Source: Patiria pectinifera (Eukaryota > Echinodermata > Asteroidea > Valvatida > Asterinidae). From it: DNA of 64,000 bases. The notes beneath the pieces are model-generated. The model was not told where the DNA came from. It ran no database searches and saw only the letters and a program-made list of their open reading frames with translations. Numbering within the stretch: position 1 is the first letter of the stretch; each line of letters opens with the position of its first letter. This document shows positions 525 through 29,949 of the stretch, piece by piece. A program made the position numbers and the translations under genes. The DNA is taken from the NCBI GenBank assembly GCA_029964075.1, contig CM057149.1, positions 4,784,465-4,848,464 of the forward strand. The letters run 5' to 3'.

Positions 525-545
525 TTTTCAGAGCAGCTGCGAAAA
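525..545 (+). CDS. Candidate microexon 1 (21 nt)
   Basis: A long pyrimidine tract ending TTTTATTTTGCAG is followed by 21 nt and then a perfect GTAAGT donor. Read in phase 1-1 (2 nt, six codons, 1 nt) it encodes FRAAAK plus split codons. The flanks are nearly identical to copy 2, whereas the exon differs at 3 of 21 positions. The host gene is unknown; no larger exon is recognisable nearby. The splice signals are seen directly, while use as an exon is inferred. Confidence 0.45.
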
Positions 546-769
546 GTAAGTTGCCTTTTGTTCTCTGAATTTGCACTCGAAGTACAGTTCATATCCTATT
601 GAAATTGGTACACAACCTGCCAAAGTGTACTGTATATGTTTATTTTCATCATTGTGTAAATCAGGAACTTGACCATCAGTGATCGTTTCCCATTATATAA
701 ATGTACAAAATGTAACAGTGACTCGTGAAATGACAACATGAACAAATATAAGGTCTCAAAAGATGATAC

Positions 770-1762
770 ATGCAGGGTTATAAACAAATCATTTTTTTCC
801 CAAGTCAAGTCAAGTCTCGAGTCAATTTTTCACAAGTCAAGTCAAGTCTCAAGTCAATTTTGTTTTCAAGTCAAGTGAATTTTCGATTGATTTTTCTTTT
901 ATTTCTAAATATTACATGCACATTTTACGTACTGGAACCAGTTTATATGTTGGACGCCGGAGAAGAGATAGGAATGGGGTTTATTAAAGCGTGCATCATG
1001 CAACGAGATTTAAAAAAAATATATATCATACTTTTCAAACATCCTCTCTCAAACACCTTATTTGTATAAAAGGTGTCTTAATATGCATTTTGATATAATA
1101 TTTTCGAACTTGATCCATCATGTTGAATGTTTGAAGGACGTCTGACAAAATGTCCTTCCGAACGTTTTCGTTTTTTGCATAATGTGATTTTTTTGCTTTA
1201 TGGCGGATGGGGGTAGCAGCCGTTTTCCAGTCGTTTAAACCCTAGTTGCTATTAGCAAGCTTAAGGTAAACCACTCAAAGTGTACATGAACGTGTAGTCT
1301 ATGGTCTCTATGGAATGACCGCTCTATCACAACGGATGGTACTCGGACTACGTACAGCACAAACTTCAGGTCGAGTATGATACGTTTTCAATAACACAAC
1401 TAGTCATGAACATGACGTGTGGCAGGCTCAGGATGCCAAACTATCGCTTGCTGGTTGCTAATTTGCTATGTTTATCTGCATCCTCTTCAACCGATTATGC
1501 TAGTGCGCACGAACGCCTAGAGGTTTGTGGGTTTTTTTGTAACTTAAAAAATGTGTTAATGTCAGCAAGTCAAATTTATTCGAGTCAAGTCAAGTCACAA
1601 GTCATATTTGTTCAAGTCAGGTCAAGTCTCAAGTCATTTTTTTCCAAGTCAAGTCAAGTCTCAAGTAAAAAAAAATAAAAAGTGACTCGAGTCCGACTCG
1701 AGTCGTTGACTCGGGTCAGTGACTCGATTCGCTGACTCGGGTCAGCGACTCGAGTCAACAAA
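770..1762. repeat. Insertion with (TCAAG)-rich ends
   Basis: This ~1 kb stretch splits the array block between its GGTACACG motif copies. It starts (780-870) and ends (1565-1755) with degenerate runs of CAAGTCAAGTC, then GACTCGAGTC-type near-palindromes. Shorter relatives of the same insert sit at 3115-3410 and 9795-10370, so it was present before some of the array duplications. No coding capacity is recognised. Confidence 0.6.
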
Positions 1763-2873
1763 ACAGGGTACACGATTTTTTTGGGTACCCGGGTACTTTT
1801 TACACAGAAGTGTTATATTTCATATGGGTCAGAATCAAGGGAAAAACTCACCGACACGGATCCTACGGTAGTATTCCGTGACATCTTGGCTGAACTCTAA
1901 TTGGTTATTATCATGGAATAATTTATGGAAATGGCTGGCCAACCCCTGTCCCCTCAAAAAGGGACGTTTGATGGTGGGACATATTTGGTTTGTAAACCCT
2001 GAAATTGGGCCTGGTTGATCGTTTTTTCATTGTACAGCCAATTACAAAATGTAAACAGGAGGGGGAACATGATATTTCAGTTGATAATTAATGAAATTGC
2101 ACTGCAATGATTAATAATTGCATGGTTTTCAACCATATAATTGACAAAAATACTTCTTTTATTGTGTGGAAGAAAACAGTTATGTATACAGGCTGAGTAA
2201 AAAAAAATGTCCCTTTGGATAGGCCTAAGTCCTTGTCTGCCACAAACATGGGAAAGGTTACCGATTTTTTCCTCAGCCAAAATTTGATATGGTTATTGAC
2301 CAGAGTCAGAGTAGCATGAGTAGGGCGTTGATTGTGAGGCCGGGCGGAATAGCAGAATAACACTCGGCCCACGCAGGATCTTTGTTGACTGCTGGTGATT
2401 TTTTTTTTTCTGTGAGGTGTATCGGACGACACTGTCAGCCACACGGAGAACATCTATAGAAAGAATACAAATCTCTTCCTAAACAAGTAAAAGTGCAATA
2501 TCATTATTATAAACAGCAAGCGAACACAGGAGGGAATTCAGGAACTCACCTATTTCGGAATAAAACGGTTTGAACAGACTCATGTATAGGAGGCAAGGTG
2601 CATGGTATTGATCCTGACTGTCCGCAGGCTGAAGTCAGAATGCCCTCAATCACTCACTTGAGGCCTTACCCGAATTCGACAGGGCAAGAAGCTAGATCGA
2701 GTCCGACACAAGCGCTAAGCATAACAGTTGGCCACAAATAAAGGAATAATTGATGGAATTGGCTCGCAAACACCTGTCCACCCCCAAGGGACGTTTTGGT
2801 AGTGTGACATATATATTTGCAAAAAAAATGCAGGTGCTTTTCTTGACATATTTTTTCTTCTTTTATTTTGCAG

Positions 2874-2894
2874 TGTGCAGAGCAGGTGCGAAAA
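2874..2894 (+). CDS. Candidate microexon 2 (21 nt)
   Basis: Acceptor CTTTTATTTTGCAG and donor GTAAGTTGCC flank 21 nt encoding CRAGAK in phase 1-1. This is the closest relative of microexon 1. Both splice sites are intact. Open in the same phase as all other copies. Confidence 0.45.
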
Positions 2895-3114
2895 GTAAGT
2901 TGCCTTCTGCTCTCTAAATTTGCACTCGAAGTACAGTTCATGTCCTATTGAAATTGGTACACTTACTGCCAAAGTGTATTATACTGTACATGTCTATTTC
3001 CATCATTGTGTAAATCAAGAACTTGAACATCACTGATCGTTTCCCATTAAATAAATGTACAAAAAGTAACAGTGACTCGTGAAATGACAACATGAACAAA
3101 TATAAAGTCTCAAG

Positions 3115-3410
3115 AGATGGTACACGCAGAGTTGTAACCAAGTCATTTTTTTCCAAGGTCATGTCAAGTCCCAAGTCAAGTGAATTTTCGAGTGATATTT
3201 TTTTTTTTTCAAATATTACATACACATACCACGTACGGGAACCAGTTTATGTGTTGGACGCCGGAGTAGAGATTGGAATGAAGTTTATCAAAGCGTGCAT
3301 CGTGTAAGGAGATTTAAAAAAAAAATCATTCTTTTCAAACATCCTTCTCATGGAGATACGTACTAAAAAAATTCTTTCACAGAACCCGCCCCCTCCCCCC
3401 TGGATACGCC
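3115..3410. repeat. Shorter copy of the CAAGTC-rich insertion
   Basis: Same sequence as the 770-1762 insertion but with most of the 3' part missing. It keeps the AAGTCAAGTGAATTTTCGAG boundary and the TTGGACGCCGGAG stretch. Confidence 0.5.
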
Positions 3411-4184
3411 ACTACAGATATGGTTGAGGAGGAAAGGTTACTACGGTATTGGAAAGATGTGGTGGTTATTTGCCCTATATTGATAATTCATATCTACGAA
3501 CCTATCCACTGTCCAGTGGCTTTGGGTCCACCCAGTAGTTAGTTCCTTTGTTTTTGCTTGTGGACGTATATTACAATAGAAATTCATACTTGAACTCTTG
3601 TGGTCACTGATTTAGTTCGTGCTCCCTATATGTGTAAAAAAAGAAATCAGATACAAAACTATATCACATATATTAAATGCAATTATTGTTTGTACTGAAG
3701 TAGTTCCAACAGAACTCTAAAGACCCAAACACAATCAATAGTTCTTTATTAATTAGTGAAAAATTAGTCCTATAGCCGATTCTATCTGTTCAATTGCATA
3801 TAAAGACAAAATCATCACAGGAGATAAACATGCTATACAACTATATATGATTATAGTATACGAATAATGATATTTCAAATCACCATCTGTGAATACTTAT
3901 GATTAAACGATACTAAAATTAACATCTATGGAAAGCATCCAATACTCTTCCTATACAAGCAATAGTGTAATATTGGTGTAAAACAATAATTTACGATAAA
4001 GGCAAATTTATAAAACACCAACATGATTAATAAAAAAAATCATAGGAAAACAGAAGAGAATTTGAAAACTCACATATTTCAGAATCAAACGCAATGAAAA
4101 GAGCAGTTTTGCTGGTGTGACATGTATATTGGCCAAAAATGCAGGTGCTTTCCTTTACCATTGTTTGTTTGGTTTGATTTCCAG

Positions 4185-4205
4185 CATTGGAACCTTGGAG
4201 GAAAT
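4185..4205 (+). pseudogene. Candidate microexon 3, donor lost
   Basis: Acceptor GGTTTGATTTCCAG is intact, and 21 nt encode LEPWRK in phase 1-1. The donor position reads CTAAGT instead of GTAAGT, so normal splicing is unlikely. This is also the only copy ending in T, which would create a stop codon when joined to copies starting AA. A dead donor here therefore fits with a reading frame being maintained elsewhere. Confidence 0.35.
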
Positions 4206-4934
4206 CTAAGTTGCATTTGTGTTCTCTGAATTTTAACTTGAAGTTCAGTTTATGTCCTTTTCGAATTGGTACACATAGTGCCAAAGTATACTGAGCATTT
4301 TTATGTTCATCATGTGTAAACCATGAACTTGAACATGTACTGATCGTTTCCCATCATATTCATGAAAAAAAGAAAGAAAGTGACTTGTGAACTGACAACT
4401 TGAGAATATATCAAGTCTCTAGTGATGGAACAAGATTTTTTGGGCAGTAAGGTATACTTTTTACACAGAGGGTTTCTTGGTCACATGGGTCGGAATCAAG
4501 GCAAAACTCACGAAGACTGATTCTAGTATTTTCCACTGACGTATGTAATTCCAGTGATTTCGGATTCACTCATTAGTTAGTTGCTTGTATACTGTATACT
4601 GAACAAGTAAAAGAGCAGTATCGGTGTCAAACAATAATTTTCGATGAGGGCAACTCGCCTATTTCAGAATAAAACGGTATGAGCATGACTGTCCGCAGGC
4701 TGAACTCAGAATGCCTTCAACCACCTACATGAAGCCTATCCCGAATTTGACAGGTCAAGAAGCTAGACCAGGCGCTATATTTTATAGGTTGCCACAATTA
4801 TCGGAATAATTGATGAAAATTGCTGGCCAACCCCTGTACATCCAAAAAAGAGTAGTTTTGCTGGCGTGACATATATATTTGACAAAAATGCAGGCGTTTT
4901 TCTTAACCATTTTTTTGTTTGGTTTGATTTCCAG

Positions 4935-4955
4935 AATTTGAACTTTCTGAGAAAG
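4935..4955 (+). pseudogene. Candidate microexon 4, donor lost
   Basis: Acceptor GGTTTGATTTCCAG is intact and the 21 nt encode FELSEK in phase 1-1. The donor position reads ATAAGT, so the GT is lost. The exon is closely related to microexon 7 (3 differences), which keeps a perfect donor. Confidence 0.35.
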
Positions 4956-5324
4956 ATAAGTTGCCTTTGTGTTCTTTGATTTTAACTTCAAGTACGGTTT
5001 ACGTCCTATTGAAATTGGTGAACATATACTACCAAAGTACAATGTACATGTTTTTTTTTCATCATTTGTAAATCATGAACTTGAGCATCACTGATCGTTT
5101 CCAATGATATATATGTACCAACCTTAATAGTGACTTGTGAAATGACAGAAAATATAAAGTCTGAAGAGATGCTACACGATTTTTGGGGGTACCCGGGTAC
5201 TTTTTGCACAGAAGTGTTATTAGTCACGTGGGTCAGAATCAGGGAAAACTCATGGACACGGATCCTACGGTGGTATTCCCTGAGATCTTGGCTGAGCTCT
5301 GTCTGGCTATTATTATTATTAAAC

Positions 5325-7790
5325 ATTCATTCATTCATTCATTCAACATGGTTTATTAACAAATCACGAATGGCAGCCATAGCTGAATTGCACGTGATTT
5401 ACATTAAAAAAAATGCATTTAAAAAAAAGCTAAAGGCTGACATTAAATACTAATATTAGAAAAGGTTTAGACATTGTGCATACAGATCTGACTAAAGATT
5501 GTCTATATAGAGAAATACATATTATTGTTACAGACTGTGTTGCAATCAATTTATCTTACTTTAAAAAGGGGGCATTGAAATTGCGTTAAAACTTATAAAA
5601 GACATTCAAAAAGGTTGCAGGTAAAAAAAATTATAGTCTCATTTAGGATTAGAATGATAAAAATGAGCCAGATGAGGAATGAGTTTAAAAATTGTGCAAG
5701 ATGTGTGGCAGTCAAATTATCTTATTTAAATGAAAGGTAGTATTAAAATAACGTTAAAACTTGTAAAATACAATAAAAGCTTGCAGGTAAAAATCAATTC
5801 AATTCATTTCATTTGGGATTAGAGTTATACAGATGTACCAGATGAGGAATGGCACTATTCTGCATTCTATTTGTTTTACACTTAAGTTGTGGGACTTTGT
5901 TCGAATTTCTTAGTGTACGTTTCATTTTTGGAGGAGAAGGGATAAAATCCTTAAATTGTTCAGTTTGTTTCAATGTTCTTTCGATGAATGATGTACATAG
6001 AGATTATCTTCTTTGTTTCAAGGGGGAAATCCCGAGCTCACATAGCATCTCGGAATAACTGTTATAACCACCGCGTCCGGTGATTATTCGTAGAGCTCTT
6101 TTTTGGATGCTTTCGATGTGGTCAGACTGGGCAGTGGTTAATCCCCCATCCCATACTGGTGCTCCATATTCAAGAAGCGGTCTGATGTAGCTGTTGTAGA
6201 TAATAAGTAGATCCTGGACCGGCAAACAGTGGCCTTTAAGAAGACGGAGCATGTAAAGTTTTTTACCTGCACGTTTAATGAGGTCGGTAATATGTGCGTC
6301 CCATTTCAAATTGCTCTGAATAAGTAGGCCAAGAAGTTTAATTGATTGCACTGTTTCTAATTGATGATCATGCAGCATGAGCGAAGGTGGTGCTGGGGGG
6401 TTTTGCTGGAATGTTATTTCCATTGCTGTACATTTCTTTGGGTTTAGTTTCATATTGTTATCCTTCGACCACTGTACCAAAGAGGAGACAGCTGACTGCA
6501 TGCGCGACAATTGGTTTTGAGTTCGGCATTCGACAAGTGTCATGTCGTCGACATATTTGTAGGCGTTTATACCATTCGGGGGGGGGGGGAACATATCGTT
6601 GATCATTGCCAGGAAGATGATTGACCCTAGACGTGTGCCCTGCGGTACACCAGAGTGAAGAGTGGACCAATCAGACTCGGAGGTTTTGTACCGTACTCTT
6701 TGTTGACGTTATGTGAGGAAGTCTGCGACCCATGGGATGAGCGACGGACGAACACCGAGGTCCAACAACTTAGCAATTGCTATAGTGTGGTCGATACAGG
6801 CGAAGGCTTTTGTAAAGTCTGTCACAACAATTGTAGAGGAAGCTTTTGGAATTTCAGAGTTAGCGTACACTTGGTGTAAAATGTTAATTAAGCAGTGGGT
6901 AGTTGACAGGAATTTTCGATTCCCAAATTGGTTTCGGTCCAGTTTTGGCTGGATATCACTGAAGATCCATTTGGCTATGAAGCCTTCAGTCACCTTCGCG
7001 AAATGGTCTGTGAGAGAGATTGGGCGGAGTTTATCCAGTGTAGGGGGATTTGTTTTGGGTACCGGGATAACGATAGCTCGTTTCCATTGGTCGGGCACAA
7101 TGCATTGTTCGAAAGATGAATTAATAATATGTGCTACGGGTGTCGCAAGTTCATAAGAGAATGTTCTCACAATCCTCGCGGAAATGTCATCTGGACCTCC
7201 AGCTGTCGTGCGTTTGATTTTCCCCAGTGCCTTCTGTACATCCCAAGGATAAACCTCAGGACATGGTGTTGAAGAGGGGAGGTAGGCCGGGAGTTTGGCA
7301 AGCTTTAGTGGTTCTAAATCACCCGCAATAGATACGAAGTGTTCATTGATTGCGTTAGCGATCGATTTAGTGTCATCATGATTTACTCCTGGGATAGTGA
7401 TGGGCGAGTGGTCTTTATTGGTGCCAGAGAGCACGCGGATTTCACGATACCAGGATGACGGATTTTTTTGCTTGAGCCTCTGAATCCGCTTTGAGTAATA
7501 TTCCGTTCTTGCCTTTTTGATGGTTACGATGACTGCATTTCGTAACCGTGTCCATTCATCAGTCTGTTTATTATAGTACGCTTTTTGACGTCTACGGATA
7601 AGAAGTTTAATTTCGGGAGTTATCCAGGGCTTATCAGAAGAATGTACCTTAGCTACTCGAGAGGGAAATGCGTATTTATAGCTGTATGCAAGGTATTGTA
7701 GAATTCGGTACATTGTAGGTTGACGTCACTTTTATTGGTGACGTCTAGCCAATCATGTTCGCTGATCCATCTACCATCGGTGCGGGGAGT
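5325..7790 (-). mobile_element. 5'-truncated L2-like LINE
   Basis: Minus-strand non-LTR retrotransposon holding the reverse transcriptase half of ORF2, a 3' UTR of about 450 bases and a (TGAA)n microsatellite tail at 5328-5350. Simple TGAA-type tails are typical of L2/CR1-type LINEs. The 5' end, with endonuclease and ORF1, is missing. The element sits inside the microexon array. Confidence 0.85.
5809..7713 (-). pseudogene. LINE ORF2 reverse transcriptase, interrupted
   Basis: The frame contains RT motifs AGGPDDISARIV, LRPISLT, VTDFTKAFACIDH (motif A Asp), HSGVPQGTRLG and KYVDDMTLV (catalytic YVDD), then the post-RT region with YMLRLLKGHCLP and the C-terminus. Two in-frame TAA codons, at 6709-6711 and 6004-6006, break it; the frame itself continues on both sides and ends in TGA at 5809-5811. 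Sequence upstream of 7700 (DVNLQCTEFYNTLHTAINTH) continues in another frame, so there is also a frameshift near 7660-7700. Non-functional copy. Confidence 0.85.
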
Positions 7791-8640
7791 GAAAAAAACC
7801 CATAACGAATGAGGTAGAGTGGGAAAAGTGAAAGCACTATAAGTTGCTTTACAAAAACCACCAAGAGACAACTCAAGATAAAGAACGAGAAAACAAGAAC
7901 ATGTTTGATCGATTTAAAACTGGACAATAACGATCAACACTAGATATAATGAAATGGACCTGAGATCCATGGTGCGGGGAGTGAAATAAAAATGCATACC
8001 CTTGGAGACAGGTTGATGTTTAGCGTCAGATATGGATGAGAAGGAAAGGTTACCTATGGTATTGGAGGGGTGGTGGTTAGTTGCCCTCTTGGGAATTCAC
8101 ATTTTCGAAACTACGACCTCTCCACTGTCCTATGTAATTCACTGTCCACTGTCCACTGTCCTATGTAATTCCAGTGGCTTTGGGTTCACTCATTAGTTAG
8201 TACCTTTGTCTTTCCTTGTATACGTATACCACCATTGAAATCCATACTTGAACTCTACTGGTCGGTGATTTAGTTCTTATACTCCCTCCGTGTAAAATTC
8301 TTTTCAGATACAAAATTACATTATAATTATATTGAAAGCAGTTATTGTTTGTACTGAACCAGTGTCAACAAAATTGTGAAAACCCAAACACAATCAGTAA
8401 TTCTCTATTAATTAGTAGAAAGTAAGTCATATAGCTGATTGTGTCTTTTAAATTGCATATAAAGACAACAATCACCAGAGTAGATAAACATGATATACGA
8501 CTATATGTGATTATAAGCTTGGAATAATATTTCAAATCACTATAAAAATCGCAATTAATCGGCTAATACTTATGAATAAATAAATGAATAATTCAACTAA
8601 TTAAGAAAGAATCATGTAAGCACTAACACTAACAATAAAA
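7791..8640. repeat. Array block without microexon
   Basis: Holds the CAGATATGGATGAG, CTGTCCTATGTAATTCCAG and TGGCTTTGGGTTCACTCATT landmarks of the array, with a short local duplication of CCACTGTCCACTGTCC near 8120-8165. No exon-like segment seen. Confidence 0.6.
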
Positions 8641-9555
8641 TAATATAGAAAGAATGCTAAACTCTTCATAAAAAAGTAAAATTCCAGTATCCATGTACAA
8701 CATTAAGTTACGATGACGGCAAATTTATAAAACCTGCAATTTCACTGCAATGATTAATTGCATGGTTTTATACGATATAATTTACACTTTTTTGATTGTG
8801 TGAAATAGAATAGTAAGGCCTATGTATACAGGAAGAGAGAAAAAAGGAAAGGTTACCGATTTTTTTCCTCAGCCAAAATTCGATATAGTTATTGACCAGA
8901 ATCAGAAACATTTTCACTGATGTTCAGCCATGCATGAGTAGGGCGTTCATTATGAGGCCGGGCGGAATAGCAAAATAACACTCGGCCCACGCAGGATCTT
9001 TGTTGACTGCCGCTTTTTTTCTTTTCTGTGAGAGGTGGATCGGACGACACTGTCAGCCACACGGAGAACATCCATAGAAAGAATGCGAAGCTCTTCCTAA
9101 ACAAGTAACAGTGCAATATCAGTGTAAAACAAAAAATTACGATAAAAAAGGCAAATTTATAAAACAGCAACATGATTAATTAAAAAAAAAATCATTCGAA
9201 AACAGAAGGGAATGCGGGAACTCATGTTTCAGAATATAACGGTATGAACTGACTAATGTTTAGGTGGCAAGGTGGCATTGATCCTGACTGTCCGCAGGCG
9301 GAAGTCAGAATGCCCTCAATCACTTACACGAGGCCTAACCCGAATTCGATATGACAAGAAGCTAGATCGACTCCGAGACAGACGCTTTGTATAATATTTG
9401 ACGACAATTTAAAAAATAATTGATTTAAAGAGCTGGCCAGCCCCTGACCACCCCCCCCCCTCCCCCAAACGGAAGTTTTGGTAGTGTGACATATATATTT
9501 GCAAAAAAAATGCAGGTGCTTTTCTTGACGATTTTTTTCTTCTTTTATTTTCCAG

Positions 9556-9573
9556 CTTTTGAAGCTTACCTAG
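9556..9573 (+). CDS. Candidate microexon 5 (18 nt)
   Basis: Acceptor TCTTTTATTTTCCAG and a perfect GTAAGTTGCC donor flank 18 nt rather than 21. The length change is exactly one codon, so the phase 1-1 frame is kept and encodes FEAYL. The other two frames contain stops. Both splice sites are intact. Confidence 0.45.
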   Translation, partial: LLKLT

Positions 9574-9794
9574 GTAAGTTGCCTTCTGTTCTCTGAATTT
9601 GCACTTGAAGTACAGTTCATGTCCTATTGAAATTCGTACACATACTGCCAAAGTGTACTGTACATGGTTATTTTCGTTATTGTGTAAATCAGGAACTTGA
9701 GCATCACTGATTGTTTCCCATTATATAAATGTACAAAAGGTAACAGTCACTCATGAAATGACAACATGAACAAATATAAAGTCTTAAGAGAGGG

Positions 9795-10370
9795 TACACG
9801 CAGAGTTGTAAGTCAAGAGAATTTTCGAGGGGAATGGGGTTTATCAAAGCATGCATCGTGTAAGGAGATTAAAAAAAATCATACTTTTCAAACATCCTCT
9901 CTCAAACACCTTATTCGTATATAAGGAGTCTAAAAATGCATTTTGATATAATATTTTCAAACTTGTTCCATCATGTTGAATGTTTGAAGGATGTTTGACA
10001 AAACGTTCAAATTCGTTTAAATGCATGATGTGAATTCTTTTTGCTTTATGGCGGATTGGGGTTGCAGTCGTTTTCCAGTCGTTTAAACCCTAGAGTTGTA
10101 TTTAGCACGCTTAATTTAATCCACTCAAATGACCGCTCTTTAACAATGGATGGTACTCGGACTACGCACGGCACAAACTTCACCTCGCATGCACGAGGTC
10201 GAATATGATACGTTTTCCAAAACATACGCATAAATGCTAGTCATGTACATGACGTGTGGCAGGCTCGGGATGCCAAACTATCGCTTGCTGGTTGTTAATT
10301 CGCTACGTTTATCTGCATTCTTTTCAACCGATTATGCTAGTGCGCAGGAACGCCCAGAGATTAAAAGCTA
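9795..10370. repeat. Third copy of the CAAGTC-associated insertion
   Basis: Shares with 770-1762 the GGGGTTTATCAAAGC, TTTGCTTTATGGCGGAT and GACGTGTGGCAGGCTC segments. Most of the CAAGTC runs are lost. Non-coding. Confidence 0.5.
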
Positions 10371-10574
10371 GCAATAATTACATCTCAAATCCCCACTAGG
10401 AAAAGTGCAAGTATTCGGTGAATACTTATGAATAAATGGATAAACTATCAAACTAATTAAGAAAGAATACTCTAAGCACTAATAATAAAATTTACATCTA
10501 AAGAAAAAACTTAATCTTTTCCTGAACAAGTAAAAGTTCAATATCGGTGTAAAACAATAATTTACGATAAAGCC

Positions 10575-10945
10575 AACAAAAATAAATACTCGTACTTTGG
10601 TCAGCGCGCGCGTCGATTTTAATCATGCGCGTCAAACTTGTTTTTCTTCTTCAAATTAACACGGAATCTACAACAGCGCCCTCTATTGCCGCACCTCATT
10701 AAATTTTTGTACCAAGGAGCACCAAGGAATGGGGAAATTGCACCAAGGCAAATGATCAAGGGCACCAAGGCAAATTATGCAGGACACCAATGTATAATGA
10801 GGACAGTACAGTTCAAGTACAGTCTGCACAGTTCAAGCTTGAAAAAAAAGCCACCCCCCCCCAAAAAAAAAAGAAGAAACGCGTCGCCGCATCAATTCCG
10901 AAACTTCGGTCTGACCAGAGACCGACAATTTTTTTTTTTGGCCTA
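10575..10945. mobile_element. ~370-bp MITE-like insertion
   Basis: Compared with other array copies (GATAAAGGCAAATTTATAAAAC), this sequence is inserted between TAAAGCCAA and TAAAGGCAA, a likely 9-bp target duplication with one mismatch. Inside are GCGCGCGCG, several CACCAAGG repeats and homopolymer runs. Terminal inverted repeats are not evident. No coding capacity. Confidence 0.45.
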
Positions 10946-11028
10946 AAGGCAAATTTATAAAACAGCAACAAGATTTGTAAAAAAAGTATAGAGGACAGAA
11001 GGGAATTTGGGAACTCGCCTATTTCAAT

Positions 11029-11231
11029 AAGCCTTTTCGGAGTTCCAACTGCGCGCATTCGTAACCTGTGACAACGCACATTATTTGTCTCAAATGCCCT
11101 TTGACAGTACCCACAATGCACGAACAGCCTTTTTGTAAAGTCAGTGGCGCGATGATGTCAAAGGCCATTTGAGACAAATAATGCGCATTGTCACAGGTTA
11201 TGAATGCGCAGTTTGAACTCCGAAAAGGCTC
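11029..11231. mobile_element. Hairpin MITE, ~203 bp
   Basis: The two ends are inverted copies over about 75 bp: AGCCTTTTCGGAGTTCAAAC and related sequence at both termini, including ATTATTTGTCTCAAATG in each arm. The central part is about 50 bp. It interrupts the array block at TATTTCA/GAATAAAACGG, so the empty site is visible in sister copies. Typical of a small non-autonomous foldback element. Confidence 0.75.
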
Positions 11232-11519
11232 ATATAAAAGGGTATGAACATGACTGTCCGCAGGCTGAAGTCAGAATGCCCTTAATCACTTACATGAGGC
11301 CTGTCCCGAATTCGACAGGGCAAGAAGCTAGATCAACTTTAAGACAAGCGCTACATATAAAAGTTGGCCACAATTAACGGAATAATTGACGGAAATGATC
11401 AGACTAGCCAACCCCTGCCAACCCCCCCCCCCCCCCGGGAAGTTTTGGTGTTGTGACATACATATTTGCAAAAAATGCAGGTGCTTTCCTTGATCTTTTT
11501 TTTTTCATTTGATTTCCAA

Positions 11520-11540
11520 AAGAGTATGCACAATTTGCAG
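11520..11540 (+). CDS. Candidate microexon 6 (acceptor shifted)
   Basis: Aligned to the other copies, the acceptor AG has become AA. An AG exactly 3 nt further downstream (11521-11522) would give an 18-nt exon, 11523-11540, still in frame and encoding YAQFA. The donor GTAAGTTGCC is perfect. The full aligned 21 nt would read EYAQFA. Confidence 0.4.
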
Positions 11541-19340: not shown

Positions 19341-20262
19341 CCGACGCTTTATCCTGAAAGCCCGTCAAATCGCCAACATCCTGGACAACAGCCCAGAAGA
19401 CGAGCCCCCAGTAGTCAATGAGGATGAGGAGAGCCCTGACACGAACGACAGGGACAATCCCTCCGCCTTCAGAGTCCAGACACGACATTCCCCGCACTTG
19501 GACACGTGTTGTGGCCATCACACCATCCGCATAACCATCGATAGTGGAGCCACAGGAAACATGATCCGTGCCTCCGCTGCAAAGCGCCTAGGGGCTACAA
19601 TAAAGGAGAGCTCCCAATCTGCACATCAAGAAGATGGTTCATCCCCACTCACGGTAATGGGCGAGACACGCCTCACACTCTCCCGTGATGGCTGTGAGTT
19701 CTGCTTCGAAGCCCTAGTGATCGAGAACCTCGATGTCGACGCACTTGGTGGTACACGTTTTATGGAGACAAATGACTTGGCCGTTCGACCAGCCAAGCGC
19801 CTCATCTCCCTCGCTGATGGAACCACCTTCCTCTACGGCTCACCCACAGACCAACCCAGGCCTCATAGCGTCCGCCGTGCACATGTACTTCGTGCTCCTG
19901 CCAGCTCCACCACTGTCTGGCCAGGAGAATTCATTGAGGTACAACTCCCCAAGGACATATCATCATCGGACAGCACTTTCGCCCTTGAGACCCGCACCGA
20001 TTCCCCTAGCTCCATTATGGCCGCCCCTGCTCAACTCTGGCCTCCCCCGGACATAATTGACAGTGTGGCAGGGAAAATCCGCATTCCTAACTTGACTACG
20101 GAGCCACGTGTACTGAAACGACATGAACACATCTGTCAAGTCCGCCCTGTGTTCGTACCCACCCCACCCCACGACAAAACAAGTGAGCGAGGTACCAACC
20201 AGAGCTGCCCCCGAAAAGCAACTGCCCCGGCCGGCCCTACACTCCAAACTAGTCTCCGTTGA
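19335..20262 (+). pseudogene. Retroelement aspartic protease region
   Basis: Open frame with the retropepsin motif ITIDSGATGNMI (DSGA at about 19540-19555), an acidic linker before it, and a hydrophilic dUTPase/protease-to-RT linker after it. It overlaps the start of the RT frame, which begins near 20123 in another frame, so a frameshift separates protease and RT. Single DSG motif, as in retroviral-type proteases that act as dimers. Confidence 0.75.
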
Positions 20263-21708
20263 ACCAGACAACATACTTCCTAACGAAACGAGAGCCGCTT
20301 TCCAGTCCCTCAACCAGGAATTTGATGAGGTCTTCAACCCAGTATTCAGTAGTTACAATGGCAGTGCTGGACACTTTGAAGCTGTCGTCAACATGGGCCC
20401 CGTCCAGCCCCCACAGCGCAAGGGGCGCCTCCCGCAGTATTCAAAGGACAAACTGCAGGAGCTTCAACACAAATTTGACGATCTTGAAGAAAAAGGTGTC
20501 TTTGCACGTCCAGAGGAAGTAGGCATCACAGTCGAATACCTCAACCCTTCCTTTCTCGTCAAGAAGTCGAATGGTGGCTTTCGATTAGTCACAGTCTTCG
20601 CCGATTTTGGCCGCTATAGCAAGCCACAGCCTGCCCTCATGCCTGATGTCAACTCCACCCTGCGACAAATCGCACAGTGTAAAAACATTATTGCCACTCC
20701 CCTTTCCGCGGAGTTCGCGTCTACACCAGGTCAGCAATGGGCAGGCCGGGCTCAGAAACTGCACTTGAAGAGCTTATGTGCTGCGTGCTGGGTGACCTGC
20801 TGAAGGAGGGCATAGTAGCCAAGATTGCAGACGACCTGTATTGTGGTGGCAACACTCACGTCGAACTGTTACATAATTGGAGGCGGGTCCTGCACACCCT
20901 GTACAAATGCGATCTTCGCTTCTCTGCCAAAAAGACCATCATCTGCCCAAAGACGACCACCATACTCGGATGGGTTTGGTCACTGGGAACACTTCATGCA
21001 AGTCCTCATGGCGTCGCGACCCTTGCATCATGCTCCATCCCTGAGAAAGTCGCAGGCCTGCGTTCTTTCATCGGGGCATACAAGGTCCTTACCCGCGTCC
21101 TTCCCAACTGTGCCTCCATCATCTCACCCCTAGACAGCGTCGTGGCTGGACGTCAGTCGGTTGATCGCCTTCAATGGACTGACGACAGTCGCACCGCCTT
21201 CTCCAGTGCTCAGGCTTCCCTCTCTAAAGCTCGTACGGTAACGTTACCTCGCCCAGTTGACCAGTTATGGATTGTCACAGACGGAGCTGTCAAGAATCAT
21301 GGCATTGGTGCAACCAAGTTTGTCACACGCCATGGTACGCTGCTCCTTGCCGGCTTTTTCAGTGCCAAACTCCGTGGGCGTCAGCCAACATGGCTCCCAT
21401 GCGAAGTAGAGCCCCTGTCAATTGCTGCTGCCACTAAGCACTTCAGCCCATACATCATTCAGTCTACACACAAAACATCCATCCCCACTGACAGCAAACC
21501 CTGTGTTCAAGCTTTTGAGAAGTTATGCCGTGGGATAATTTCCGCCAGCCCCCGAGTATCAACATTTCTGTCGACTGTCAGCCGCTTTCAAGCCACGGTC
21601 CGCCATCTCGCAGGCTCAGCGAATATCCCATCAGACTTTGCCAGTCGAAATGCCCCAGAGTGCACTGACTTTGCTTGCCCAATCTGCTCGTTCGTGAAGC
21701 ATACATAG
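20123..21708 (+). pseudogene. RT-RNase H, with deletion of motif A
   Basis: The first segment (20123-20705) holds the N-terminal RT part ([39 protein letters not shown]). At NIIAT the sequence jumps to the [11 protein letters not shown] region in a different frame, so about 20 residues including the motif A aspartate are missing. The second segment (to 21708) holds [13 protein letters not shown] (motif C, ADD), the connection, and RNase H starts at [16 protein letters not shown] and ends near SDFASRNAP. Catalytically dead as it stands. Confidence 0.85.
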
Positions 21709-21756
21709 GACTCCGTCGTCCAGCGCATCTCTACACAGGACATTGCCACTGACAAG

Positions 21757-23269
21757 GTGAAGCTGCCATTCACCAGTCGATCAGCCTGGGCAAACTTGCA
21801 GGCAGAGTGCCCAGATTCGCGCCGTACGCATGCTCATCTTCTGCAAAGCACTCGTCCCTCCAAAAAGGTCACCAATGCCAAAGATGTCAAACGGTACCTC
21901 AACGTCGCCACCATCGCTAAAGATGGGTTCCTGATCGTTCGCAGAGATGAGCCATTCGCTCCCACACGGGAGTGCATTGTAGTCCCACGACAGGTTTTGG
22001 ATGGCCTCCTCACTGCCCTTCACATCCAGCTCAACCATCCATCATGCCACCAACTCAAGTGCGTTGTCCATCGTTACTTCTATGCCCTCGACATGGACAA
22101 GTCCATTGAGAAAATCTCATCTAGTTGCCACCAATGCGCTGCTCTCTGCAATGCCCCCACTACCGTAAAGCCTCAAACCACCGAAGATCCACCAGATGCT
22201 GTCGGCATATCCTTCGCGGCCGACATTATCAAACGAAGTCGTCAGCTCATTCTTGTTGTACCTGAGAGTGTCACGTCTTTCACAGCCACATGCTTCATAG
22301 AAGATGGACGACACACCACTCTTTGGGATGCACTTATTACCCTTTGCATTGAGTTACGCCCACTTGACGGACCCCCAGCTGTAATCCGTACTGACCCAGC
22401 AGCAGGCTTCAGGTCCCTTGTGACTGATGAGCTCCTGCAGCAGCACAGGTTGACCATTGAACTTCATCATCAAGAATATCGACAAGAATCCAGTTGCCGA
22501 AAAAGCTGTACAAGAGCTGGAAGACGAGTTCCTGCGCCAAGATCCCATGGGTGGCGCCGTATCACCACTGACTCTTGCATTAGCCACATCTTGCCTGAAT
22601 TCCCGCATACGCTCCCGCGGTCTGTCCGCTCGCGAGATGTGGCATCAACGGGATCAGTTTACAAATAACAAGATTCCCATCACCGACCGGCAGTTGATTC
22701 TTGACATTCGCAACGCTAATCTCCCCCACAGTGAAAAGGCGAAGATACCATCAGACAGAATTGCATCTGACACTGTTGTCGCCATTGGGGACTTAGTATA
22801 TCTCCATGGTGACCGCAACAAAACAAAAGGACGAAACCGCTTCCTTGTGACAGCCATTGATGGGTTGTGGTGCAGTGTCCGTAAATTCATCGGAAACCGG
22901 CTCCGGAGCACATCCTACCGTGTTAAACGCTCAGAGTGTTTCAAGGTACCTTCCCACTCTGATATCGATCCACCTTTTCCATCAGAATGGCCCGATCTTC
23001 ATGACAGTGCTGATGAAGTAGACGCTGACATAGCACCAGCTCCACCCACACCACCTGCCATACCCATCATACTCTCGACACCTGCCAAGCAAGCTACTGG
23101 ATCCCCCTCTCTGGAAGCTGAGCATGCACCACAAGTAGCAGATGTACCTATTCACGCGTCGCTTACTCCACAGCCCACGATTCCTACAAACAGCCCTGGA
23201 GACATGAGCTTGTCCACGCTCACCCGCAAGACGCTCATCCCGCCTACGCAAACCACCCGCATACCTTGA
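21757..23269 (+). pseudogene. Integrase with one frameshift
   Basis: Starts with a zinc-binding segment (HIQLNHPSCHQLK, SSSCHQCAALC), then the DDE core: FAADIIKRSRQLILVV, VIRTDPAAGFRSL and, after a frameshift near 22470-22490, NPVAEKAVQELEDE. The C-terminal domain has GDLVYLHGDRNKTKGRNRFL and a Pro-rich tail ending in a stop at 23269. The order zinc-DDE-Cterm and placement after RNase H are Ty3/gypsy features. Confidence 0.85.
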
Positions 23270-23575
23270 TGACTACTTGACTGATTATTGACACTGATCC
23301 GTGACTGTGTGAACACTTGTAGTGTTTAGGACAAGATATATAATGCCTTCCTATGGAGTGGCACATTTGGGGCAGAATAATCCCCAGGGCTGGAGGGCAG
23401 TCTACCCCTATGAAGGCCCATTGTGTTCTTTATGTAGCATTAGATTCCATTTTGATATTATATATTTGGCTTTGTTTCTGGTTTCAATTGAGCGCAGCAA
23501 CAAAAAGCCATATTCTTCGTTCTCCTAATATATTTTACTGAAAGAGGGACTTGTTTCAGTTCTTTGCCTTGTTTC

Positions 23576-23594
23576 AAAAGAAAAAAAAAAGAGG
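23576..23594 (+). promoter_or_regulatory. Polypurine tract
   Basis: Run of 19 purines (A-rich, ending GAGG) three bases before the 3' LTR. This is the expected plus-strand primer site. Confidence 0.7.
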
Positions 23595-23597
23595 TCA

Positions 23598-23779
23598 CGC
23601 CAGTAGTAATCATTACGCCCTCTTGCGTTCGTGACCTTCGACCTTTTGTCTTCGTTCTATCGTTTATCGCTCAATGTGCAATCCCGCCTTTGTTCATTAA
23701 AGTGTCCCATTATACCCGATAAGTCGATTACAGTTGCGGTTATGGTGTGCGTTGGATTGAACTCTTGTCCTTACTGGTG
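23598..23779 (+). repeat. 3' LTR (182 bp)
   Basis: Same length as the 5' LTR and about 93% identical by eye. Differences cluster in the middle (GTGCAATCCC versus ATGCGCTCTC). The array block resumes immediately with GAGCTCTATCTAGTTC. Confidence 0.85.
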
Positions 23780-24309
23780 GAGCTCTATCTAGTTCAAAGT
23801 ACTAGGAGTGAAACAAAACTGATACTTTTAGAGAAAGGTTTATGTTTCGCCCAGATATGGATGAGTAGGAACGGTTACGGTATTGGAATGTGTGGTGGTG
23901 AGTTGGCCTATTGGGAATTCATTTGACGAACCTAAACGACCTCTCCTCTGTCCTATGTAATTACAGTGGCTTTGGGTTCGCTCATTAGTTAATCGGTGCA
24001 CACTTATGAATAAACGGAAGAATAGTCAAACGTATTTACAAAGAACCCTCCCAGTACTGATACTAAAATTAACACCTATAGAAAAAATCCAACACTCTTC
24101 CTAAACAAGTAAAAGTGCAATATCGGTGTGAAAGAACAATTGACGATAGAGGCAAATTTATAAAACATCACATGATTAATAAAAATAAAAATCATTGGAA
24201 AACAAAAGAGAATTCGGGAACTTACCTAGTTCAGAATAAAACGGAATAAACAGACTCATGTATAGGAGGCAAGGTGGCATTGATACTGACTGTCCGCAGG
24301 CTGAAGTCA

Positions 24310-24540
24310 GAATGCCCTCAACCAGAGAAGTGAGTTGCCCTGTGTTCTCTGAATTTTGACTTGAAGTACAGTTTAGGTCCTATTCAAATTGGTACACATA
24401 CTGCCAAAGTGTACCGTACAATGTTTATTTTCATCATTTGCAACTACCTTGAATTTTAGCATGACTGATCGCCTTCGATTATTTCATGAACCAAAAAAGT
24501 GACTCGTGAACCGACAATTTGAACATGCGTCTCAAGTAAT
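24310..24540 (+). repeat. Array copy truncated through its microexon
   Basis: A deletion joins CCCTCAACC to AGAGAAGTGAGTTGCC, so only the last bases of the microexon and a GTGAGT donor are left. The downstream intron-like sequence is typical. No acceptor remains, so no exon is called. Confidence 0.6.
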
Positions 24541-25637
24541 GGTACACGATTTGGGGGATACCAAGGTACTTATATGGAATAGTTCTCGGTCACGTGAGTC
24601 AGAATCGAGGAAAAACTCACGGAGAAGGATCCTACGGTAGTGGTCTGTGAGATCTTGGCCGAGCACTACCTGCTTCACAGTACTGTGAGTGAAACAAAAA
24701 TTGATACTTTTGGAGAGAGGTCTATGTTTTCCGTCAGATGTGGATAAGAAGGAAAGGTTAACAACGGGATTGTAAGGGGGTGGTGGTTAGTTGTCGTACA
24801 TGTTGCTACAAAATAAGGAGCTCTCCACTGTCCTTTGTAATGCTAGTGGCTTTTGGTCCAATCTTTAGTTAGTTCCTTTGTCTTTGCTTGTATACATGTC
24901 CGTGTATCACCATTGAAATTTATACTTGAACTCTACCGGTCACTGATTTAGTTCTTACTCCCTAATATGATGAGCATTGTTATAAAATAGTCCTATGGCT
25001 GATTGTGTCTTTGCAATTGTATATAAAGTAAACATTCACCAGAAGAGATAAACGTGCTACAACTATATATGATTATAAGCTGGGAATAATTAAATTTCAA
25101 ATCCCCACTAGGAAAATTGCCAGCGTTCAGTGAATACTTATGAATAAATGGATACATTATCAAACTAATGAAGAAAGAATACTCTAAGCACTAAAACTAA
25201 GATTGACATCTATAGAAAGAACTTAATCTTTTCCTGAACAAGTAAAAGTGCAATATCGGTGTAAAACAATATTGCACGATAAAAGCAAATTTATCAAACA
25301 GCAACATCATTAATAAAAGAATTCATACGAAAACAGAAGAGAATTCGGGAACTCGCCTATTTCAGAATAAAACGGTATGAGCATGACTGTCCGCAGGCTG
25401 AAGTCAGAATGCCCTCCACCACCTACATGAGGCCTATCCCGAATTCGATAGGTCAAGAAGCTAGATCGAGTAACCAGGCGCTATATATAATAGTTGGTCA
25501 CAATTAGTAAAATAATTGTTGAAAATGGCTGGCCATCGCTGTCCATCCCAGAAAGAAGAGTTTTGCTGGTGTGATATATATATTTGCCAAAAATGCAGAT
25601 GCTTTCCTTTACCATCTTTGTTTGGCTTGATTTCCAG

Positions 25638-25658
25638 AATTTGAACTTTATGATAAAA
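25638..25658 (+). CDS. Candidate microexon 7 (21 nt)
   Basis: Acceptor GGCTTGATTTCCAG and perfect donor GTAAGTTGCC. The 21 nt encode FELYDK in phase 1-1. Closest to microexon 4. It lies 3' of the LTR retrotransposon, in the part of the array nearer to the ZU5-UPA-death-domain gene. Confidence 0.45.
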
Positions 25659-26339
25659 GTAAGTTGCCTTTGTGTTCTCTGAATTTTCACTTGAAGAACG
25701 ATTGATGTCCTTTTCAAATGGGTACACATACTGCCAAAGTGTCCTGCGCATGTTTATTTCCATCATGTGTAAACCTTGAACTAGAACATTTACTGATCGT
25801 TTCCCATCATATACATGTTTGGAACATAAAAACAAAGTGACTGATGAACGGACAACTTGAAGATATATCAAGTCTCAAGTGATATAACACAATTTTGGGG
25901 GAGTAAGGTATACTCTTTACACAGAGGGGTTCTTGGTTACATGGGTCGGAATCCAGGCAAATCTCATGGAGACGGATTTTACGGTAGTATTCCGTGAGAT
26001 CTTGGTTGAGCTCTGGCTGATTCACAGAACGGAGAGTCAAAAAAAAGTTAATACCCTTGGAGAGAAGTTTATGTTCAGCGTCAGATATGGATGAGGAGGA
26101 AGGTCAACTACGGCATTGGAAGGGGGTGGTGGTTAGTTGCCCTATTGGCAATTCATATTAACGAGTTCTCCACTGTCGTATGTAATTCAAGTGGCTTTGG
26201 GTTCACTCATTAGTTAGTTGTTTGTATACGTATATTAATATTTAAATTCATCTACTTGAACTCTTCCGGTCACAGATTTATAGTTCTTACTCCCTATGTG
26301 TAAAATTCTATTCAAATACAAAATTACATCATATATTAT

Positions 26340-27042
26340 AGGTTATCTTGAGCATACTTCCCCTTTATTTTGAATATTTTTAAACTTGGTGATTTTTTTT
26401 GGTTTCATTTGGCTCAATTTATTTTTTAAATACTCTCGTAATGTATTACCCAAAACAAAATCAAGCCTTTTTTTTACCAAGTTCTTCAGTTCACATTCAC
26501 CAGACTCGTAGTTCAGTTATAGGGGATCTTTTTGTGGAACCAAGTAGAACTGAGGGTTTTTTAAAGAGTGTCTTTCATCAAGGGGTCATATGCTGGAAGG
26601 GTTTAAATACAGACCTTAAACAGTCAGCCATTTCCCATCTTTTTGTAAAAAAAATTAAGAATAATATTACCGATTTATACAACACTTAATATATTTGCAT
26701 CTCTTCATATTTTATTACATCAAATGTATTGTTCTCTATATACCTTTTGCCCGGTCTCACTCCTGCATAACATGTCCTTGTCCCCATTATTTGTATGTTC
26801 TTTTGTCCTTGTGTCAGTATATTCTTTTGTTTTTGTTTTCATACGGAAGGGGAACAAGAAGCAATTGCTTCTCCCTTTTTTTACATGTGAACATCACTTC
26901 ATTATTTATTTATTTATATTGCTCTAGAAAAAAATATCTCTTTTGAACAAGTTGCAGAGTATGATGAGCATTGTTATCACATTTTTCAATGATGTTGACA
27001 TAAAATATATGTGTATCTGAAATGGAATGAAATGAAATTATT
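26340..27042 (+). mobile_element. LINE 3' end with (GAAAT)n tail
   Basis: The + strand C-terminal LINE peptide runs from about 26360 to a stop at 26689 (HTRSSVIGDLFVEPSRTEGF, CWKGLNTDLKQSAISHLF). It is followed by a ~330-base 3' UTR and a GAAATGAAATGAAAT tail. It resembles the C-terminal region of CR1/L2-type ORF2. Severely 5'-truncated. Confidence 0.75.
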
Positions 27043-27783
27043 GTTTGTACTGAAGTAGTGCCAACAAAACTATGAAAACACAAACACAATCAATTGTTCT
27101 CTATTAATTAGTGAAACAAATAGTCCCATAGCTGATTATGTCTTTGCAATTGTACATAAAGTTAACATTCACCAGTCAGAAGTGATAAACACATGATTAA
27201 TATATATATATATGATTAAAAGCTAGGAATAATAATATTTCAAATCCCCACTAGAAAACTTGCAAGTATTCAGTGAATATAATAAATGGATAAATTATCA
27301 AACTAATTAGGAAAGAATACTCTAAGCACTCATAATAAAATTGACATCTATAGAAAGAACTTAATCTTTTCCCGAACAAGTAAAACTTCAATATCGGTGT
27401 AAAACAATAATTCACGATGCAGGCAAATTTATAAAACAGCAACATGATTTATAAAAAAAAGTCATAGAAAAACAGAAGGGCATTCGGGAACTCGCCTATT
27501 TCAGAATAAAACGGTATATGAACATGACTGTCCGCAGGCTGAAGTCAGAATGCCCTCAATCACTTACATGAGGCCTGTCCAGAATTTGACAGGGCAAGTA
27601 GCTAGATCGACTTCAAGACAAGCGCTATATATAATAGTTTGCCACAATTAATGGAATAATTGACGGAAACGGCTGGCCAACCCCTGTCTAGCCCCCAAAA
27701 AGGGAAGTTTTGGTGTGGTGACATCCATATTTGCAAAAAAAAGCAAGTGCTTTCCTTGACCTTTTTTTACATTCAATTTCCAG

Positions 27784-27804
27784 AAGAGGAGGCAGGATTG
27801 GTAG
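27784..27804 (+). CDS. Candidate microexon 8 (21 nt)
   Basis: Acceptor CATTCAATTTCCAG; the donor is GTTAGT, weaker than consensus but keeping GT. The 21 nt encode EEAGLV in phase 1-1. It shares its first five bases with microexon 6 and differs at several positions after that. Confidence 0.4.
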   Translation, partial: KRRQDW

Positions 27805-28360
27805 GTTAGTTGCCTTCTCTTCTCTAAATTTTCAATTGGGGAACAGTTTTATGTCCTTTTCAAACTGGTTCACACACTGGCAAAGGGTACTGTACGTGTT
27901 TACTTTCATCATGAGTAAACCATGAACTTGAACAGTTACTGATCGTTTCCCATCATATTCATGTATCAAACAAAAAACAAAAAAGTGACTTGTGAACTGA
28001 CTACTTGAAGATATATCAAGTCTAAAGTGATGGAACATGATTTTGGGGGAGTAAGATATACTTTTTACACAGAGGGGTTCTTGGTCACATGGGTCGGAAT
28101 CAAGGAAAAAACTGACGGAGACGGATTCTACGGTAGTATTCCGTGAGATCTTGGTTGAGCTCCGGATGATTCACAGAACGGAGAGTGAAACAAAAGTTAA
28201 TCCACTGAGAGAGAAGTTTATGTTCAGCGTCAGATATGGATGAGGAGGAAGATTTACTACGGCATTGGAAGGGGGTGGTGGTTAGTTGCCCTATTGGCAA
28301 TTCATATTAATGACTTCTCCAGTCACTGTTGTATAGTTCTTACATCATATATTATAGGTA

Positions 28361-29165
28361 ATCTTGAGCATACTTCCCCCAAATTTGCCAATTTGAATAT
28401 TTTCAAACATGATAATATTTTGTTTTCATTTCGGCTCAATTTATTTTTTCAGTACACTCGTTATTTATTACCACAAAAAACTCGAGCCTTCTTTTTACCT
28501 AGTTCTTCAGTTCACACTCACCAGACTTTTGGCTCAGGTAAAGGGGATCTTTTCGGTGAAACCAAGTAGAACTGAGTTTTTTCGAGGCACTAATACTAAA
28601 ATTGACATCTAAAGAAAAAACTTAATCTTATTCCGAACAAGTAAAAGTGCAATATCGTTGTAAAACAATAATTTACGGTAAAGACAATTTTTTAAAACAG
28701 CAACATGATTAATGAAAAAATCATGTTCGGGAACTCGCCTATTTCATCATGTACTAAAAAGTTGTGAACTTGAAATTTGCTCATCAGCCTCAAGTGATGT
28801 TACACGATTTTTGGGGTACCCGGATACATCTCTTCATACGTTATAACATCAAATTTATTGAACTCTATACATCCAGTGCCCGGTCTCACTAATGCATAAA
28901 CATGTCCTTGTCCCAATTATTTGTATGTAGTTTTGTCCTCGTGCCAGTATTTTCTTTTAGTTTTGTATTCATAGGGAAGGGGAACAAAAAGCAATGGCTT
29001 TTTCTTTTTCTTACATGTTAACATCATTCCATTGTTCATTTTTTATATATTGCTATATACAAAATATTTCTTTTGAACAAGTTGCATAGTATGATGAGCA
29101 TTGTTATCACAATTTTCAAAGATGTTGACATGAAGTAAATGTTTCTGAAATGAAATGAAACTATT
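28361..29165 (+). mobile_element. Second copy of the same LINE end, split
   Basis: 28361-28578 matches the peptide-coding part of the 26340 copy and 28829-29165 matches its 3' UTR and tail. The ~250 bases between them are array block sequence (GACATCTAAAGAAAA...). The junction ...AAGTAGAACTGAG is shared with the scrap at 17850-17895, so the insertion was duplicated with the array and then rearranged. Confidence 0.65.
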
Positions 29166-29928
29166 GTTTGTACTGAAGTAGTGCCAACACAACTATGGAA
29201 ACACAAACACAATCAATAGTTCTCTTTTCATTAGTGAAAAAATAGTCCTATAGCTGATTGTGTCTTTGCAAAAGTTAACATTCGCCAGAAAAGATAAACG
29301 TGCTACAACTATATATGATAATAAGCTAGGAATAATTATGTTTCAGATCCCCACTAGGAAAAATGCAAGTATTCAGTAAATACCTTGAATAAATTGATAA
29401 ATTATTAAACTAATTAAGAAAGAATACTCTGAACAGTAATACCTTAATTGACATCTATTGAAAGAACTTAATCTTTTCCTGAACAAGTAAAAGTGCAATA
29501 TCGGTGTAAAACAATAATTTACGACAAAGTCAAATTTATGAAACAGCAACATGATTAATAAAAAAATCATAGGAAAACAGAAGAGAATTTTGGAACTCAC
29601 ATATTTCATCATGTACACAAAAGTGAGTTGTGAACTGACAATATGCACATCAGTCTCAAGTGATGTTACACGGGGTACTTAGATACTTAGTACCCAGAGT
29701 TCTTGGTCACATGGGTCAGACTCAAAGCAAAACTCATGGAGACGGATCCTACGGTAGTATTCCTTGAGATTTTGCATGGCCGAGCTCTATCTGGTTCAAA
29801 GTACTGGGAGTGAAACAAACTTTTAGAGAAAAACATACTTTTAAAGAAAGGTTTTGGTGGAGTGCGATATATATTTGCCAAAAATGCAGGTGCTTTCCTT
29901 GACCATTTTTGTTTTCACTAATTTCCAG

Positions 29929-29949
29929 ATTTAATTTCTTCTGGTGAAG
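29929..29949 (+). CDS. Candidate microexon 9 (21 nt)
   Basis: Acceptor TCACTAATTTCCAG; donor GTAAAT. The 21 nt encode LISSGE in phase 1-1 and are stopped in another frame. It is the last intact copy before the array ends, and the nearest to the ZU5-domain gene, whose first visible exon also starts after a phase 1 intron. Confidence 0.4.

Follow-up and report, generated by a model that had tools for sequence, protein, structure and literature searches.

Protocadherin and UGT1 genes carry arrays of variable first exons, each with its own promoter and far longer than the exons described here, and vertebrate neuronal microexons, of 3-27 nt, preserve the reading frame, occur singly and are highly conserved. 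In arrays of the Dscam type, exclusion of all exons but one is brought about by base pairing between docking and selector sequences. We know of the exon array, the tiny symmetric exon and the fast-evolving linker of a ZU5 sensor only apart. Shrimp Dscam holds tandem arrays of 26, 81 and 26 mutually exclusive exons (PMC6851185), and the micro-exon genes (MEGs) of schistosomes have very small symmetrical exons and a raised ratio of nonsynonymous to synonymous change (dN/dS) (PMC4350168). The fast-evolving N-terminal linker of NLRP1 is a protease tripwire cut by viral proteases (PMC7857732). PIDD and NLRP1 undergo self-cleavage at an HF/S or SF/S site that lies at ZU5 or beyond it, the HF/S of PIDD lying right after its ZU5 domains, and serine, threonine or cysteine are possible nucleophiles in such autocleavage (PMC3210808). 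The window analysed here, a stretch of 64,000 nt from the sea star Patiria pectinifera (contig CM057149.1, hereafter C21, positions 4784465-4848464 of a 613.5-Mb genome; negative coordinates denote positions upstream of it), contains a tandem array of hypervariable microexons that probably are genuine protein-coding cassette exons of a predicted ZU5-Death gene. As in Dscam arrays, these are tandem homologous exons on one strand, in the same phase and in tens of variants (here 28, + strand, phase 1-1), and as in MEGs tiny symmetric exons go together with raised dN/dS. No prior description of the array was found among the open-access papers listed in the literature searches, as judged by titles and the beginnings of abstracts.

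Extent of the array and reading frame of the microexons

An earlier note on this DNA had described nine inserts, each placed between a splice acceptor and a donor within diverged copies of one block. All nine were located, with the peptides listed there; both splice sites are present in six, whereas the copies at 4185, 4935 and 11520 have one broken site each:

525..545, + strand: microexon FRAAAK, 21 nt, AG/GT intact
2874..2894, + strand: microexon CRAGAK, 21 nt, AG/GT intact
4185..4205, + strand: microexon copy LEPWRK, 21 nt, CT for GT at 4206, donor broken
4935..4955, + strand: microexon copy FELSEK, 21 nt, AT for GT at 4956, donor broken
9556..9573, + strand: microexon FEAYL, 18 nt, AG/GT intact
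11520..11540, + strand: microexon copy EYAQFA, 21 nt by alignment, acceptor AA for AG; an AG 3 nt further in would give 18 nt
25638..25658, + strand: microexon FELYDK, 21 nt, AG/GT intact
27784..27804, + strand: microexon EEAGLV, 21 nt, AG/GT intact, donor GTTAGT
29929..29949, + strand: microexon LISSGE, 21 nt, AG/GT intact, donor GTAAAT

Positions 1..31000 (+) of the window are part of an array of ~2.1-kb blocks, broken up there by elements that read like mobile elements. The array extends to about -192,000 in the 210 kb of contiguous upstream sequence examined, where nearly all blocks share its strand; one fragment near -119 kb is inverted, and a gap of 500 bases lies near -34 kb. Hence the nine inserts over 29 kb are present, but they are only part of a set of at least 28 copies with both flanks alignable, all on the + strand, which spans 222 kb of window and upstream sequence; two copies with a single flank (24330 and -171523) were left out of the 28. 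Sixteen further loci read elsewhere on C21 gave 12 copies with both flanks, and five of these loci have lost one side.

Among the 28 array copies one measures 18 nt, 22 measure 21 nt, three 24 nt and two 27 nt, so that the predicted peptides have 5-8 residues. The acceptor AG is kept in 25 and the donor GT in 25, both in 22; where AG is missing (three copies) the start was placed by alignment and the length is not independent evidence. Both sites are kept in 6 of the 12 copies elsewhere on C21.

The frame carries a clear coding signature. Read in the 1-1 frame, none of the 28 copies contains a stop codon, whereas 11 and 10 copies do in the other two frames, and shuffling of the bases gave on average 10.4 copies with a stop and never reached zero in 20,000 trials. 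On these grounds the microexons read as protein-coding. The 25 array copies with AG are likewise all free of stops in that frame, and elsewhere on C21 one copy of 12 (L035) has a stop. An AG acceptor stands before 33 of the 40 copies with both flanks, 25 of them in the array and 8 at other places on C21, and the length of each of these 33 is divisible by three; in the remaining seven, alignment fixed the start so as to give 21 nt, and counting them raises the multiples of three to 40. Only 10.1% of gaps in the flanks are divisible by three, in an all-pairs count whose entries are not independent. The single open phase reported for nine inserts therefore extends to 28 of 28, and the frame-preserving change of length seen among them recurs as lengths of 18, 21, 24 or 27 nt.

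Hypervariability and selection

That the insert is the most variable part of the block was borne out: among the 1223 windows of 21 nt covered by at least 10 copies the exon ranks first, at 0.566 vs roughly 0.1-0.25 elsewhere. For the 22 copies of 21 nt, mean column diversity is 0.55 in the exon, 0.246 upstream and 0.216 downstream, and the peak coincides with the exon borders (0.55 vs at most 0.31 in 147 windows outside). The exon also diverges faster than the intron around it, as had been claimed. Parsimony on a tree built from 179 flank sites, with the 33 of 40 copies that have 21 nt and with broken copies included, gives 8.05 changes per site in the exon and 2.49 in the flank, the best flank window of 21 sites reaching 3.38. 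When copies of equal length were paired disjointly (16 pairs), differences fell on 100 of 339 exon sites vs 278 of 2848 flank sites (p 5e-21; four disjoint pairs of unequal length were excluded).

The changes inferred within the exon by parsimony comprise 129.8 that alter the amino acid vs 11.2 silent ones, where the neutral ratio is 3.53. The altering rate is thus ~3.3 times neutral, and arithmetic on the same counts gives a rate per silent site of ~2.8 vs 2.49 in the flank. The 20 closest pairs of equal length, which are not independent, agree, with silent differences per site (pS) of 0.077, a flank divergence of 0.065 and altering differences per site (pN) of 0.341. Since silent changes run near the flank rate and amino-acid changes at about three times the neutral one, the peptide appears to be under diversifying selection and not in decay, the estimate being limited by few silent sites, the use of parsimony, possible gene conversion and the inclusion of broken copies. 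Homogenised flanks around an ordinary exon are an unlikely explanation, because silent sites inside the exon diverge about as much as the flanks. Nor do the peptides seem free of constraint, since 22 of the 28 begin with F, W, L, V or C. The contrast between silent and altering changes within 21 nt indicates strong selection on very short segments.

The predicted downstream gene and the putative partner exons

The earlier note had read the array without any link to a downstream gene; this needs correction, as a ZU5-Death gene is predicted at 30604-41613, on the same strand, as eight exons that join in one open frame. Most blocks hold, beside the microexon, a 55-nt exon-like stretch, here called exon A (phase 0 to 1, typically AEVRMPSITYMRPxPNSTG), whose last copy heads the model:

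30604..30670, + strand: last exon A copy, AEVRMPSITYMRPTQNLIGQET, donor at 30659 or 30671, both phase 1
32934..33028, + strand: predicted linker exon KRKHEHKNQ...TTPE, starts in phase 1, ends in phase 0
33379..34014, + strand: predicted ZU5 exon, domain match
37682..37876, + strand: predicted exon u1, after ZU5, weak acceptor, start chosen to keep the frame, no family match
37996..38169, + strand: predicted exon u2
40376..40594, + strand: predicted exon x3
40867..40903, + strand: predicted exon x4
41345..41613, + strand: predicted Death-domain exon with the stop codon, domain match

In the protein of this model Pfam recognizes ZU5 (PF00791, E 7.9e-17) and, at the C-terminus, Death (PF00531, E 3.5e-10). 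No other domain is recognized in the modelled part, where neither LRR nor CARD was detected, and UPA gave no match at E 0.1 in the model protein, the predicted u1-u2 occupying its expected place. Among solved structures, ZU5 matches ZO-1 and UNC5B best, and Death matches PIDD. The protein that best matches the ZU5 frame at 33352-34026 comes from Patiria miniata (54%); its own best match in this genome, at 89%, lies on C22, which suggests a genome closely related to P. miniata but not of that species. The tripeptide HFT is encoded at 33883-33891, 36 residues past the Pfam ZU5 match. A partial copy of the ZU5 exon lies at 37467-37544, between that exon and u1.

The microexons end in phase 1, which is the phase in which the linker exon at 32934 starts, and each of the four codons that could form at this junction (ACT, CCT, GCT and TCT) is sense. 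Since the microexons are 1-1 and the linker starts in phase 1, any of them could join it in frame. Being symmetric, they are not forced by the frame into mutual exclusion, and by their phases several in a row would be permitted. Exon A has G as its last base, in phase 1, so that every first junction codon with a microexon is also sense. A microexon spliced to a downstream exon A would meet an in-frame TGA at once (GCTGAA read from the third base); downstream copies of exon A must therefore be skipped.

Three exon A copies elsewhere on C21 (L033, L040 and L044) carry a strong donor, CAG/GTAAAG, which suggests that exon A was once an exon. Its diversity by codon position (0.101, 0.227 and 0.142) is not that of plain purifying selection. 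In a scan of the block for synonymous bias exon A scored highest, with weaker scorers at 27341-27424 (minus strand), 28213 and 27720-27770. The first of these does not look coding in the alignment and the second sits in a region with stops in many copies; the stretch FRERFMFRPDMDE...RPLHCPM, considered as another coding part of the block, has stops and frame shifts in many copies. In our view exon A first served as the 5′ partner of the microexon and is dead today in most copies. Two copies of the array with AG, GT and an open frame are:

4699..4753, + strand: exon A copy, 55 nt, phase 0 to 1
25397..25451, + strand: exon A copy, 55 nt, phase 0 to 1

On this basis we propose a cassette model for the array. 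A unit of ~2.1 kb that held a microexon of 21 nt (phase 1-1) besides the 55-nt exon A (phase 0 to 1) would have been duplicated many times. The transcript would begin at an upstream promoter, and splicing would place a single microexon, or a small number of them, between an upstream exon ending in phase 1 and the linker exon at 32934. Each mRNA would carry a different segment of 5-8 residues just N-terminal to ZU5, and diversifying selection would drive the residues of the segment apart. What the sequence shows is the coding frame, the constrained length, the excess of amino-acid change, the reach of the array and its agreement in phase with the predicted linker exon; we infer the splicing, that microexons are chosen one at a time, which exon is the 5′ partner, and any part played in recognition or defence. 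The capacity for many short peptides foreseen by the earlier note is provided by 28 symmetric copies in the same phase.

Two genome searches with different copies of the block gave 49 matches (40 of 84 candidates scored) and 40 matches (40 of 58 scored); all scored ones lie on C21 between 3.07 and 4.82 Mb, in eight clusters, grouped by eye, in both orientations. A mobile-element origin of the block is unlikely given this confinement of the scored matches. The array region of C21 has one full ZU5 match and one fragment, and a distant C21 match lies at 37.9 Mb. For the Death domain 150 of 440 genome candidates were scored, and all statements on its relatives hold among these. Four of the eight clusters, including this one, have a Death match on the same strand within 60 kb downstream. 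The closest Death relatives of this gene are on C21 (82, 81 and 80%), and these three sit downstream of three other C21 clusters, on the same strand. Large expansions are found on other sequences of the assembly: related Death-domain exons occur by the dozen on C10, C18 and C22, and C22 has 37 ZU5 matches, in about 35 exons, from 11.5 to 34.1 Mb. For two ZU5 paralogues on C22, the preceding 8-9 kb were compared with window positions 20000-36000 and contained neither an array block nor a convincing exon A. Linker-like exons are present there, two of them (L049:7883-7957 and 8551-8592) ahead of one ZU5 exon, hinting that the linker has also been duplicated in paralogues. DNA like the linker exon lies at C22:27344112-27344200 (81%).

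Further elements were observed in the window. Inside the array, 18575-23269 (+) is a GC-richer stretch (46-51% in 4-kb windows) whose frames read like an LTR-type retroelement; two of these frames gave no Pfam match. A single frame of 986 residues at 47855-50815 (-) reads, by eye, like the endonuclease-reverse transcriptase of a non-LTR retrotransposon, and shorter frames at 13053-15885 (-) and 6004-7725 (-) resemble it. Local tandem repeats lie at 57793-58527 and 62582-63181, and two frames of the latter are open and contain repeats such as EHHGD and GNTMG.

Alternative readings and known systems

Several observations weigh against the cassette model. Six of the 28 microexons have a broken splice site, although their frame is kept. 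Crude scans of 160 kb upstream did not reveal the 5′ end of the gene: a search for Ig, TSP or membrane exons gave four motif matches resembling noise and 21 hydrophobic stretches, and the one checked, a frame just before the linker at 32805-32890 (IVLLLLPSVLCLYMSFSLILIYYMNMIL), was rejected as a membrane exon for want of an open phase-1 donor beyond it. In the gene model the exon borders were placed by eye, and the start of u1 was picked for frame, so that its junction is not independent evidence. Exon A is mostly decayed: AG, GT and frame are together in 12 of the 38 copies tested, and in 7 of 25 in this array, eight of 46 copies having been dropped as truncated, shifted or fused. Among the eight clusters there is only one full ZU5 match, so that the arrays are not tied to ZU5, and four clusters lack a same-strand Death match within 60 kb downstream. 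The neighbouring cluster L050, of which the last 10 kb were read, shows Death alone of the exons of the gene. It also has intron pieces, and a copy of the 3′ flank of the gene precedes its Death exon; with this make-up L050 may be a rearranged fragment. Mutual exclusion receives no support from pairing, since in a docking scan of the intron 30671-32933 against 10 of the 28 copies the best mean energies (-24.2 upstream and -23.9 downstream) were like those of shuffled controls (-25.6 and -23.6).

The place of exon A in the block admits a different arrangement, that of a cluster of variable first exons, in which every block would have its own promoter, exon A with its conserved ATG would be the first coding exon and the choice of promoter, not of splice sites, would pick the peptide of the microexon that follows, as in protocadherin or UGT1 genes. 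Exon A and the microexon do share a block and are phase-compatible, most exon A copies retain the ATG, and variability just upstream of it is low (0.118 at 27500-27539). However, an AG precedes exon A in 30 of the 38 copies, intact exon A copies are scarcer than intact microexons (12 of 38 vs 22 of 28), and the aligned blocks at 4000 and 29640 have a microexon and no exon A. We consider this arrangement unlikely. Equally unlikely, in our judgement, is that the microexons serve another transcript, from another gene or from a small gene in each block, with ZU5-Death downstream by chance. Such a transcript would fit the finding that the clusters, eight in all and lying in either orientation, have a single full ZU5 match among them and that half of them lack a Death match downstream; yet the synonymous-bias scan is topped by exon A, while the scorers at 27341-27424 and 28213 do not hold as coding, the microexons match the linker exon in phase, and three other clusters are followed by the closest Death relatives on the same strand.

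If the array were a tandem repeat without function that contains a local mutation hot spot, its frames open by chance, this would account for the six broken splice sites and for the greater damage elsewhere on C21, where both sites survive in 6 of 12 copies and five of 16 loci have lost one side. This reading is already contradicted by the substitution pattern: a hot spot should increase both kinds of change, silent and altering, yet the silent ones stay near the flank rate, and it would spare neither frame nor length, both of which are kept. We therefore hold it to be most improbable, and prefer the cassette model.

Diversifying selection beside a ZU5-Death module perhaps points, by analogy with NLRP1, to a role of the segment in recognition or defence, perhaps under pathogen pressure. 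A more specific and unlikely version sees the array as a genome-encoded library of bait peptides selected by splicing, each placed in the linker ahead of ZU5-Death and acting either as an NLRP1-like tripwire, where cleavage or binding by an enzyme of a pathogen would set off a signal through the death domain, or as a tag for recognition. If true, it would amount to a somatically variable innate sensor built from microexons, with one segment per cell or tissue.

In comparison with the systems named at the outset, Dscam exons encode half or whole Ig domains, extracellular, whereas those described here have 18-27 nt and lie beside ZU5-Death in an echinoderm; the gene families are unrelated, the modelled part here giving ZU5 and Death and no Ig. 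Tiny exons make up most of the coding region of schistosome MEGs, whereas here one position is multiplied and the other predicted exons measure 37-636 nt. The array would work like a Dscam array with MEG-sized exons, yet by the features compared here it is a member of neither class. With protocadherin and UGT1 it has the array of variable exons in common, its exons being far shorter, and with vertebrate neuronal microexons the size and the frame, although here they are arrayed and hypervariable. NLRP1, CARD8, PIDD and UNC5B place ZU5 before a death-fold domain, as the predicted gene does with its C-terminal Death; the difference is that variation here is stored in an exon array and not only between species, and that no UPA was detected at the threshold given. 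The HFT found after ZU5 resembles in sequence the HF/S of PIDD, with T in place of S, and may be taken as a lead. If used in transcripts, the microexons would represent a route to peptide diversity that unites a Dscam-like array, a MEG-like exon and the fast linker of a ZU5 sensor, and the array offers a clean test of whether splicing varies innate sensors in echinoderms.

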